Origin: a virus
IMG/VR virus record: IMGVR_UViG_3300028581_000276
Location: 1-21,820 of that record
Reading direction: 5' to 3' (one strand)
Length of the DNA stretch: 21,820 nt
Within the stretch, counting starts at the first letter, position 1; each line of letters begins with the position of its first letter. This document shows, one piece after another, positions 2,877 through 6,571 of the stretch. The position numbers and the translations under genes were made by a program. Below the pieces are notes generated by a model that was given only the letters and a program-made list of their open reading frames with translations, did no database searches and was not told the origin of the DNA.

Positions 2877-3002
2877 ATGACACCCACACCACTGGACGTC
2901 CTTAGCTACCTCACCGATGCGACCTTCATGTCGCTCGTCGGGTTACTCGTCGTCGGCTCCATCGCCCTCAACGCAATCAACAAGATTGGAGGCCGGCGAT
3001 GA
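2877..3002 (+). CDS. Small single-pass membrane protein, 41 aa
   Basis: First rightward gene. The ATG at 2877 gives a short polar N-terminus, then a hydrophobic segment (FMSLVGLLVVGSIALNAI, about residues 17-34) and a basic KIGGRR end, so it probably sits in the membrane with the C-terminus in the cytoplasm. It overlaps the next gene by ATGA. No function can be read; small early membrane proteins of phages include holin-like and host-takeover proteins, but it is not near any lysis gene. No clear ribosome binding site precedes it. Confidence 0.5.
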   Translation: MTPTPLDVLSYLTDATFMSLVGLLVVGSIALNAINKIGGRR

Positions 3003-3139
3003 TCGACCCCGACTACGACGACCGGTGCGACGATGAACAGCGTGAGGCCGACATCAGCCGGGCGCATTCGGCTGACTGCATGGCGGCCTATGGCGTGCCC
3101 TACGATCCCTATGATGATGGCGACGAGGAGGACGCATGA
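2999..3139 (+). CDS. Small acidic protein, 46 aa
   Basis: This starts at an ATG overlapping the preceding stop (ATGA), with GGAGG about 6 nt before, and ends in ATGA with the methyltransferase. The sequence is Asp/Glu-rich throughout (MIDPDYDDRCDDEQREADIS and a DDGDEEDA tail). Such small acidic phage proteins can mimic DNA and inhibit host nucleases, but nothing specific is visible. The reading is supported by coupling on both sides. Confidence 0.5.
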   Translation: MIDPDYDDRCDDEQREADISRAHSADCMAAYGVPYDPYDDGDEEDA

Positions 3140-4302
3140 GCCATGTGGGTTCTGCCTCGCCAGTTACACACGTCTCCCTTTGTGCCGGATACGGAGGCAT
3201 TGATCTCGGACTCCACCGAGCAATCCGAAATCTGCGCACAATCGCTGTTAGCGAGATCGAAGCCTTCGCCTGCGCGAACCTGGTCGCAAAGATGGAAGCG
3301 GGACTCTTGGACTGCGCGCCTATCTGGACGGACCTTAAAACCTTCCCATGGTCAGACTTTCGTGACCGCGTGGACATCCTCTCTGGAGGTTATCCCTGCC
3401 AGCCCTTCAGCACAGCAGGAAAGCGGCTTGGCAAAGAAGATCCCAGACACCTCTGGCCTCACATATCAGCCGGAATTGCTCTCATGCGACCGGGTGTCTG
3501 TTTCTTTGAAAACGTCGAAGGACATATCTCGCTGGGGCTGCCCGACGTTTTGCAAGACCTGGTCGGACTGGGTTACCGACCGACGTGGTGCGTGGCGTCA
3601 GCGCGTGAATGCGGCGCGCCTCACCAGAGGAAGCGGGTCTTTATCTTGGCCTACCGCGAATGCAAGGGACTGGAAGGATTCTATAACCGGAACACACCCA
3701 CCGAGCCGACCGAATATGTCGGAGCAGACGCTTGGGCAAGCAGTGAGTGTGATGTTTGGCCAAGCCGCCCAGGCGAGCAGCAGCACGGATGGGAGCCGCC
3801 GAGAACAGTGGGGAACCCCGCGAGCATCCGAAGCGAAATGCGGAACCCCAACAGCCCGCGACCACATTACCGGGGATCAAGTGTTTGCGGAGGAGATAAA
3901 GAAGCAGTGGCCGACACCAACAATGCAGGATGGGAAACAAAGCGGTATAACTCCGTTCCAAGCGAAGGGAGGGAATCACACAAACCTTCTGCACGTGAAA
4001 GCAATGTTGGAGAATCAGAAGCAGTGGGCAACGCCGACGCCGTGGCAGCAAGACGAGTCAGCAGAATCTTGGGAAGCCCGCAAGGCGAAGAACATGGTGG
4101 AGAGACGGCAGAGCGGCAGGCTGAACCCCCGCTGGGTCGAGACGTTGATGGGTCTCCCTGTGGGCTGGACTATGCCCAGCTGTGTGAATCCTGTGACAAC
4201 CGCACCGACGAGTTGCGACTCCTCGGGAATGGCGTTGTGCCAGCCGTCGCAGAGCGAGCGTTTAGGCTTCTTGTTAGTGAGCTGATGGAGCACCAGCCAT
4301 GA
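3136..4302 (+). CDS. dcm: DNA cytosine-C5 methyltransferase (Dcm-like)
   Basis: Transfers a methyl group from S-adenosylmethionine to C5 of cytosine in a DNA target. Visible motifs: I, LCAGYGGIDLG at residues 15-25 (SAM binding); IV, GGYPCQPFS at 84-92 with catalytic Cys88; VI, ENVEG at 125-129; VIII, QRKR at 164-167; and RLLGNGVVPAVAERAF near residue 361, the conserved Asn/C-terminal motif. Residues about 175-350 should be the target-recognition region. They are low-complexity-like, Glu/Gly/Asn-rich and repeat VAD/VGN units, because a second long frame uses the same DNA. The length of 388 is normal. No restriction enzyme is adjacent, so this is a solitary phage methyltransferase, probably protecting phage DNA from host restriction. 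It overlaps both neighbours by ATGA. Confidence 0.93.
   Translation: MSHVGSASPVTHVSLCAGYGGIDLGLHRAIRNLRTIAVSEIEAFACANLVAKMEAGLLDCAPIWTDLKTFPWSDFRDRVDILSGGYPCQPFSTAGKRLGKEDPRHLWPHISAGIALMRPGVCFFENVEGHISLGLPDVLQDLVGLGYRPTWCVASARECGAPHQRKRVFILAYRECKGLEGFYNRNTPTEPTEYVGADAWASSECDVWPSRPGEQQHGWEPPRTVGNPASIRSEMRNPNSPRPHYRGSSVCGGDKEAVADTNNAGWETKRYNSVPSEGRESHKPSARESNVGESEAVGNADAVAARRVSRILGSPQGEEHGGETAERQAEPPLGRDVDGSPCGLDYAQLCESCDNRTDELRLLGNGVVPAVAERAFRLLVSELMEHQP
3143..4285 (+). CDS. Long overlapping ORF (380 codons) inside the methyltransferase gene, +1 frame
   Basis: This frame is open from an ATG at 3143 to 4285, entirely within the methyltransferase gene and shifted by one base. Its translation has its own pattern: SLSWPTANARDW at about 167, then WGTP, WPTP and WATP repeats, and a C-terminal RLNPRWVETLMGLPVGWT (about residues 326-343). 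From memory, WPTP repeats ending in LNPxWVxxLMGxPxGWT recur in phage proteins listed as hypothetical or methyltransferase-associated; I could not check this. In this DNA the methyltransferase repeats (VADT, VGNAD, GNPAS) and the WPTP-type repeats are the same bases read in two frames. It could be a real second protein, a product reached by frameshifting, or a by-product of codon constraint. There is no ribosome binding site before 3143. Confidence 0.4.
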   Translation: MWVLPRQLHTSPFVPDTEALISDSTEQSEICAQSLLARSKPSPARTWSQRWKRDSWTARLSGRTLKPSHGQTFVTAWTSSLEVIPASPSAQQESGLAKKIPDTSGLTYQPELLSCDRVSVSLKTSKDISRWGCPTFCKTWSDWVTDRRGAWRQRVNAARLTRGSGSLSWPTANARDWKDSITGTHPPSRPNMSEQTLGQAVSVMFGQAAQASSSTDGSRREQWGTPRASEAKCGTPTARDHITGDQVFAEEIKKQWPTPTMQDGKQSGITPFQAKGGNHTNLLHVKAMLENQKQWATPTPWQQDESAESWEARKAKNMVERRQSGRLNPRWVETLMGLPVGWTMPSCVNPVTTAPTSCDSSGMALCQPSQSERLGFLLVS

Positions 4303-5536: not shown

Positions 5537-6571
5537 ATGTATAATGACTCAGAATTAAACATCACAACGCATGTTCCTCTGTCGGATGGGGGGGGAGGGG
5601 GTTGCGTGTTCTCAATTTCTTCAAACACCCCCACCGATTCGGCTCCGACACTGTCCAAAGAAAAACGATTCCGAAGAGGCGATGTAAACCCTTCTGATGG
5701 AACGATTTTCTGGTGCTACGAACGCGACAGGAGGGTTGATGGCAGTGTTCATGTCAGAGAGCGCTGGATGCCGTTACAGAGATACGCCGCACAGCGCGAA
5801 TGGAAAAAGCTGGTTGCCGCCCGATATATGAACGGAGAGGCGTTTAAGGCACGGGCCGTGGACCGGGCGCAAGCCACGAAGAGGTGGGCGCAGTCTGAGC
5901 GGGGAAGGGAGCGCGCCAAGATCGGCCGGCAGAAGCCAGAGAACAAAGAGCGGCGGCGCGCTTACTCCAAGAAATACAGGCAGCGCCCAGGAGTTGCAGA
6001 AAAGAAAAGGGCAGCGGAAATAAATAGATATCAGCGCTTAAAGCATGACCCCGCATGGGTGGCCAAGATTCGCGAAAGGACGCGCAGATGGCAGCAAAAC
6101 AACCAAGAAAGATGTAAGGAACTGCAGCGCCAGTGGGCTGCGCGCAATCCCGGCCGGCGGAATAAACTTGCCAAGGCATACGTCAAGCGCCGCTACGCCC
6201 AAGACCCACAGTTTGCATTGGCCTACAAGGTCCGCGCTCGCGTTTACCAAGCCATCCAAAAGGGCGGCGCCTCCAAGACCGGCCGCACCGAGGAACTAAT
6301 CGGCTGTTCCTTTGACTTCCTGCGCCAGCACATTGAGCGGCAGTTTAAGGGCAAGATGTCGTGGGATAACCCTGGCAGTTTTCACATCGATCACATTGTT
6401 CCCCTCGCCGCCTTGGATCTTGCCAATCCAGAGCAACTCAAAGTCGCCTGCAACTGGCAGAACATGCGCCCTTTGGCGCCACGCAAAAACATGAGCAAGG
6501 GCGCCAAACTCACTGAGCCCCAACTCCACCTGCCCCTAACCATCCACAGCACAACCACCTGCCCCTTATGA
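5537..6571 (+). CDS. HNH endonuclease, 344 aa
   Basis: The C-terminus carries a phage-type HNH motif: FHIDHIVPLAALDL at about residues 280-293 (catalytic HIDH) and NWQNMRPLAPRKNMSKGAK at about 306-324. Upstream, LIGCSFDFLRQHIERQFKGK is the segment that usually precedes this motif in phage HNH proteins. Residues 90-230 are a long, very basic helical region probably binding DNA. It likely cuts DNA as a free-standing, homing-like or recombination nuclease. The N-terminus is odd: it reads through an almost pure G tract (5588-5600) giving five glycines, and the true start may lie after it. It overlaps the next gene by ATGA. Confidence 0.8.
   Translation: MYNDSELNITTHVPLSDGGGGGCVFSISSNTPTDSAPTLSKEKRFRRGDVNPSDGTIFWCYERDRRVDGSVHVRERWMPLQRYAAQREWKKLVAARYMNGEAFKARAVDRAQATKRWAQSERGRERAKIGRQKPENKERRRAYSKKYRQRPGVAEKKRAAEINRYQRLKHDPAWVAKIRERTRRWQQNNQERCKELQRQWAARNPGRRNKLAKAYVKRRYAQDPQFALAYKVRARVYQAIQKGGASKTGRTEELIGCSFDFLRQHIERQFKGKMSWDNPGSFHIDHIVPLAALDLANPEQLKVACNWQNMRPLAPRKNMSKGAKLTEPQLHLPLTIHSTTTCPL
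5588..5600 (+). repeat. Poly-G tract (G8-A-G4, continuing into one more G) near the start of the HNH gene
   Basis: Eight G residues at 5588-5595, one A, then five more G (5597-5601). It codes for a glycine run 18 residues from the proposed start. Such tracts slip during replication, so gene length could vary among copies, and sequencing or assembly errors are also likely here. Confidence 0.8.

Follow-up and report, generated by a model that had tools for sequence, protein, structure and literature searches.

Reading Frames and Features of the Locus

The window, by which we mean the whole stretch of 21,820 nucleotides that was analyzed (IMG/VR virus record IMGVR_UViG_3300028581_000276, positions 1 to 21,820), is a segment of a tailed phage, and its methyltransferase gene occurs at 100% identity on two IMG/VR contigs (L001 and L002). 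This gene is the open reading frame (ORF) at positions 3136–4302 (frame A, 388 aa), and all features given below are, like it, on the + strand. An earlier note on this DNA had pointed out a 380-codon ORF in the +1 frame inside the gene, and this was confirmed: frame B runs from an ATG at 3143 to a stop at 4285, encodes 380 aa, and is entirely nested within frame A. A Shine–Dalgarno-like sequence, GAGGAGG (3125–3131), lies 4 nt 5′ of ATG 3136 and 11 nt 5′ of ATG 3143. The candidate starts of frame A are ATG 3136 and GTG 3145, and the latter overlaps the ATG of frame B in the sequence ATGTGG (3143–3148), which was recognized in the survey of homologue starts described below. Upstream, the sequence and its translation contain a short ORF of 46 aa (2999–3139; MIDPDYDD...DEEDA, then the stop), the TGA of which overlaps ATG 3136 of frame A (ATGA), and translational coupling of the two is possible. 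An ORF at 5537–6571, whose C-terminal part resembles endonuclease VII (PHROG 1035), lies a short distance 3′ of the methyltransferase gene.

Frame A was assigned to the putative large subunit (alpha) of a C5-methyltransferase by its matches to PF00145, to the M.HhaI profile, and to solved folds. It contains motif I (SLCAGYGGIDL, 3175–3207; SAM binding), identified from the translation and invariant columns; the catalytic motif IV (PCQPFS, 3394–3411), motif VI (ENVEGH, 3508–3525), and motif VIII (QRKRVFIL, 3625–3648), all identified in the homologue alignment; and motif X (LLGNGVVP, 4219–4242), identified from both the translation and the alignment. The PF00145 match (E = 6.9e-33) covered only residues 12–190 and ended at profile position 180 of 324. 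In the AlphaFold2 model, a catalytic domain predicted mostly with high confidence (residues 1–180) is followed by disorder and then by the helices of motif X; residues ∼188–358 mostly have a pLDDT < 50, and the best solved matches of the model, M.HaeIII and M.HhaI, extend over only ∼170 aa. No target-recognition fold was present in the alpha model, and, as judged from the extent of the Pfam match, the motifs of the homologues, and the model, frame A does not carry a motif IX-like element and a target-recognition domain in the same chain.

Frame B, the putative beta subunit, was defined by its ORF, its homologues, and a profile match. PHROG 1008 (“DNA methyltransferase”) matched residues 72–343 of frame B (E = 6e-24). 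Its final portion also gave a weak match to frame A at residues 355–382, around motif X (E = 0.008); this was the first hint that parts of one enzyme are written in two frames. The profile also matched 88 of the 88 B proteins scanned. Searches of frame B against Pfam, NCBIfam, PADLOC, and PDB sequences gave no useful match, its AlphaFold2 model when folded alone was of low confidence (pLDDT 55), and a fold search with this model found no PDB match.

The stretch 3647–4120, which in frame A reads as a linker predicted to be disordered, encodes target-recognition-like modules in frame B. Five module heads are present in the window (WPTANARD, WGTPRASE, CGTPTARD, WPTPTMQD, and WATPTPWQ), so the repeated W-TP units of the earlier note (WPTA, WGTP, WPTP, and WATP) are indeed present in the translation. 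Among the B proteins, there are 1–8 units headed W/C-x-T-P, commonly 30–40 aa in length, and the WxTPxAxD modules are ∼35 aa. The ordinal position of a given unit varies from phage to phage, which is what exchangeable recognition cassettes would be expected to show, and each W/C-x-T-P module may correspond to a target-recognition unit.

The modules are followed by a motif IX-like element, LNPRWVETLMGLPVGWT (4121–4171), which was recognized from residue homozygosity, third-position divergence, and a profile match. The element (LNPRWVETLMGLPVGW) is found in frame B and is absent from frame A, and the position and letters of LNPRWVETLMGLPVGWT resemble those of motif IX (LTPRE..RLQGFP). The protein had previously been described as ending with RLNPRWVETLMGLPVGWT; this motif is present, but “ending” is a loose description, because the protein continues for ∼37 residues beyond it. 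The element was in frame B and not in frame A in 116 genes of three clades, and in both frames in none; the same was true of frame B and frame A in 60 further genes of a second set, retrieved with a frame A alignment. A profile of frame B matched the enzyme of Gordonia phage JKSyngboy at its in-frame element (E = 7.8e-7), as did an HMM of the element (8e-8). The direct profile link between the B element and a canonical motif IX was weak (E = 0.95, to the single-chain enzyme L224), and hhalign comparisons of frame B with canonical single-chain enzymes were unconvincing and aligned elsewhere than motif IX. The link between the B element and motif IX runs via the phage relatives.

Openness of Frame B and Selection Along the Gene

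Given the frame A protein, the probability of an open +1 frame in the window alone was ∼0.011, and the same value was obtained when synonymous codons were permuted and when they were sampled anew according to codon usage in 11 other window genes. The open frame could therefore be luck if the window were considered alone, and the test rests on homologues. For the main set, loci were retrieved with the frame A protein only, giving 65 distinct genes with a total of 24,272 codons as far as motif X, and the null expectation was calculated by permuting the synonymous codons of frame A within each gene. Frame B contained 1 stop codon versus 325.9 ± 11.8 expected, and it was open in 64 of the 65 genes versus 0.21 expected. 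When the synonymous codons of frame B were permuted instead, frame A contained 0 stops versus 774 expected, i.e., frame A is not a by-product of frame B. After the loci retrieved with frame B were added, there were 2 frame B stops in 86 genes versus 444 expected, and 1,433 stops in the third frame. The second set, for which the frame A alignment was the query, comprised 76 genes with identities down to 38%; here, 25 frame B stops were counted versus 421.5 expected, most of them near the end of the tested stretch.

In 87 of the 87 genes with the motif IX-like element, frame B was open from the start of frame A through the element; up to that point, none of these genes combined a broken frame B with an intact frame A, an arrangement that the earlier note had regarded as evidence against a second gene. 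In two loci (L006 and L091, at ∼641–643), a single stop breaks frame A and frame B is open over the whole gene, attributable to a sequencing error or a decayed copy. Codon permutation ignores position-specific codon bias; nevertheless, single-chain controls match this null. In these controls, which are both bacterial and phage enzymes (L222, L223, L224, L392, and L393), motif IX (e.g., RKLTPRECWRLQGFP) is in frame A and frame B is full of stops, with a stop count equal to the null in L222–L224.

We also analyzed the conservation of residues and codon positions in each frame. On the frame A alignment, the mean homozygosity of B residues was 0.479 versus 0.261 (sd 0.002) for the permuted-codon null, and it was above the null in all of the gene stretches tested. 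The N-terminal part of frame B was constrained (0.6–0.7 versus ∼0.3 for the null), and at the motif IX-like element the homozygosity was 0.87 in B, 0.53 in A, and 0.28 in the null. The divergence at positions 1/2/3 of the A codons was 0.203/0.128/0.349 in the N-terminal region of motifs I–VIII and 0.191/0.103/0.442 at motif X; that is, the third base was the most divergent, which is the pattern of an ordinary gene. In the motif IX window, the third base was the least divergent (0.453/0.094/0.027), and identity at four-fold third bases was 98.5% versus 33% if saturated. The corresponding identity in the N-terminal part was 62.8% versus 27% if saturated, the values in the canonical controls being 38–47%. 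For the linker modules, 192 homologous pairs gave divergences of 0.289/0.087/0.070, with an amino acid identity of 66% in A and 90% in B. The linker and the motif IX window, with their frozen A wobble positions and high B identity, are therefore mainly B-frame protein, and the strongest constraint along the gene runs from frame A to frame B and back to frame A. The suppression of synonymous change that the earlier note had suggested measuring is seen at the wobble bases of A, which are frozen in the stretches under constraint in B. Together with the open frame, the conserved B residues, and the conserved overlapping starts of the homologues, these data strongly support the view, already put forward in that note, that two proteins are encoded by one stretch of DNA.

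Start Sites and Gene Layouts Among Relatives

The start region was ATGTGG, in which the ATG of B overlaps the GTG of A, in 68 of 89 homologues, and ATGACATGG, with the ATG of B and an ATG of A at the same A position, in another 18. The second residue of B, a tryptophan, was invariant among the homologues, and an SD-like site was found within 20 nt 5′ of the B start in 43 of the 89. A second, divergent clade, which includes Acinetobacter phage ABMM1, had ATGAATG in 51 of 74 genes, with the ATGs of A and B four bases apart. These starts suggest that A and B share initiation from one site.

The nested form was found in divergent clades, including phages of Paenibacillus, Acinetobacter, Escherichia, Klebsiella, and Salmonella; examples are Escherichia phage ev129, Klebsiella phage BUCT541, and Salmonella phage vB_SalP_ABTNLsp11242, and the form is also present on one plasmid each of Citrobacter and Leptospira. 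A different layout was found in Gordonia phage JKSyngboy, where a related sequence, LSPVFVEWMMGLPRGW, is in frame A between motifs VIII and X, frame B stops before the element, and the C-terminus of the enzyme is likewise matched by PHROG 1008. Upstream in this gene (L123, 1489–2553), frame B is still open over a long stretch containing PTPxAxD. It is possible that JKSyngboy represents an intermediate between the single-chain and dual-frame forms. In a third layout, that of Mycobacterium phages Eagle (gp78/gp77; L122, 1477–2572) and Catdawg (gp6/gp5; L390, 1098–2049), motifs I–VIII are in the first ORF, and the PTP part, the element, and motif X are in an overlapping second ORF; the overlap in Catdawg is 209 nt. 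The Paenibacillus polymyxa plasmid pAP1 (L225, 1441–2931) has two LNPxWVECLMGFPLxW elements in frame B, the first of which is followed by stops, and a matching duplicated stretch in frame A.

A Proposed Two-Subunit Enzyme and Its Precedents

Considering the motifs, selection patterns, and gene layouts together, we think it probable that a single cytosine-C5 DNA methyltransferase is encoded here, its two subunits being written in overlapping frames. The proposed mechanism combines features that the homologous sequences demonstrate (dual coding by selection, the distribution of the motifs, the conserved starts, and the exchange of modules) with steps that we infer (shared initiation, assembly, activity, the role of the modules, and anti-restriction). 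Ribosomes loaded at one site would initiate at the ATG of B or, a few bases from it, at the start of A. Translation of frame A would give alpha, in which a long unstructured linker joins the SAM-binding and catalytic domain (motifs I–VIII) to motif X. The product of frame B would be beta, which probably docks on alpha through its N-terminal part and carries exchangeable target-recognition-like modules and the motif IX-like element. Alpha and beta would then assemble into a working heterodimeric enzyme that methylates the phage DNA, most likely countering host restriction, and several modules may confer several specificities. The earlier note had suggested that the second protein is involved in target recognition or is otherwise part of the methyltransferase: its coding nature is strongly supported, and for its function the support is indirect, coming from the presence of the element in B only, the B-constrained modules, PHROG 1008, and the complementarity with single-chain enzymes.

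Other explanations of frame B must be weighed against the same data. Frame B might be no gene at all but a by-product of the codons and repeats used by the methyltransferase gene: the window-only probability is not negligible in a scan, and GC-rich DNA lengthens spurious ORFs. However, the stop tests in the 65 genes and the wider sets, the frozen wobble positions, and the closed frame B of the single-chain controls refute this explanation, short of a serious error in the codon-permutation null, and we consider it extremely improbable. Frame B could also be a hidden homing endonuclease, given that an out-of-frame HNH ORF is known within a phage methylase gene, in the inserted ShiLan domain (PMC11855218), but frame B covers the whole gene and is not an insertion, and we attach hardly any weight to this idea. 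An HNH endonuclease identity was rejected, as there was no HNH match in 88 B proteins.

Two further explanations accept that frame B is translated. It might be a functionally separate protein, e.g., an anti-restriction or regulatory protein, that shares its DNA with a complete methyltransferase, a possibility favored by the lack of Pfam and PDB matches to B and by its uninformative model. However, alpha has neither motif IX nor a folded target-recognition region, and B carries a motif IX-like element; in single-chain relatives, motif IX is in A and B is missing; and the second protein of Eagle and Catdawg bears the element together with motif X. We therefore regard a separate function as unlikely. 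The run of strongest constraint from A to B to A would also be expected of a single polypeptide made by programmed frameshifting, with motifs I–VIII read in A, the modules and motif IX in B, and motif X again in A. This requires two shifts, and it has no need of a conserved B start beside the A start or of a constrained N-terminal part with an invariant Trp2; because B has both, a frameshift product is less likely, and we consider it quite improbable.

The two-subunit reading has precedents in known enzymes. M.EcoHK31I (YGGCCR) consists of two polypeptides, the large one with motifs I–VIII and X and the small one with motif IX, and its predicted target-recognition domain is on the large subunit (PMC3404938). 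M.AquI is likewise a C5-methyltransferase made of two chains, the second of which carries motif IX (PMC3404938). Compared by its described motif layout, M.EcoHK31I resembles the present locus in having motifs I–VIII and X on the large chain and motif IX on the second. The small subunit of M.EcoHK31I is also reportedly encoded in another frame within the large-subunit gene, in work said to be that of Lee and colleagues in 1995, and this arrangement too is seen here. The two differ in that the recognition domain of M.EcoHK31I is on the large chain, whereas at this locus it is in B that the modules are under constraint, and the linker of A appears disordered; moreover, B here covers almost the full length of the gene, begins at the A start, and contains 1–8 modules. 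In M.AquI, motif X is on the small subunit, whereas here it is in frame A, and the layout of Eagle and Catdawg is closer to the M.AquI-like order. Phages such as SPbeta and phi3T encode multispecific C5-methyltransferases that have several target-recognition domains; as in the present system, short modules lie between motifs VIII and IX and vary in number, but here the modules are in a second frame, on another polypeptide. Paenibacillus phage Tadhana gp54/gp55 has a nested second ORF in the +1 frame with LNPDWVECLMGFPIGWT, both products being annotated as methyltransferase, but its B starts ∼67 codons inside A, away from the A start.

It is reasonably likely that these genes represent a widespread class of phage C5-methyltransferase that is written twice, once as a catalytic frame and once as a specificity frame with swappable modules and motif IX, with one ribosome-binding site and overlapping starts. 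Under this reading, the two subunits would be made together, and any exchange of modules would have to keep phase in both frames. To our knowledge, it is rare for long overlaps on the same strand to be conserved over large distances, and those that are usually pair unrelated proteins; here, both products look like parts of one enzyme, across many phages. The system would allow a direct test of the evolution of overlapping genes and of two-subunit methyltransferases, a function would be provided for the “WPTP...LMGFPxGWT” proteins, and the modules may yield new methylation specificities. Methyltransferases of this class may appear inactive if only one frame is expressed, and annotation in these phages often chooses one frame or the other.

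A literature search of incomplete coverage, and hence a weak negative, found no account or explanation of a dual-frame phage methyltransferase. PHROG 1008 mixes nested B proteins with forms fused to motif X, and the dual-frame situation is not stated there. In GenBank, both frames are annotated as methyltransferase in Paenibacillus phages, so annotators have met the frame pair. Relatives of B were also found in genomes and MAGs of Verrucomicrobiota (L127–L131), e.g., Geminisphaera colitermitum TAV2, and these may hint at the hosts of the phage clade to which the window belongs.
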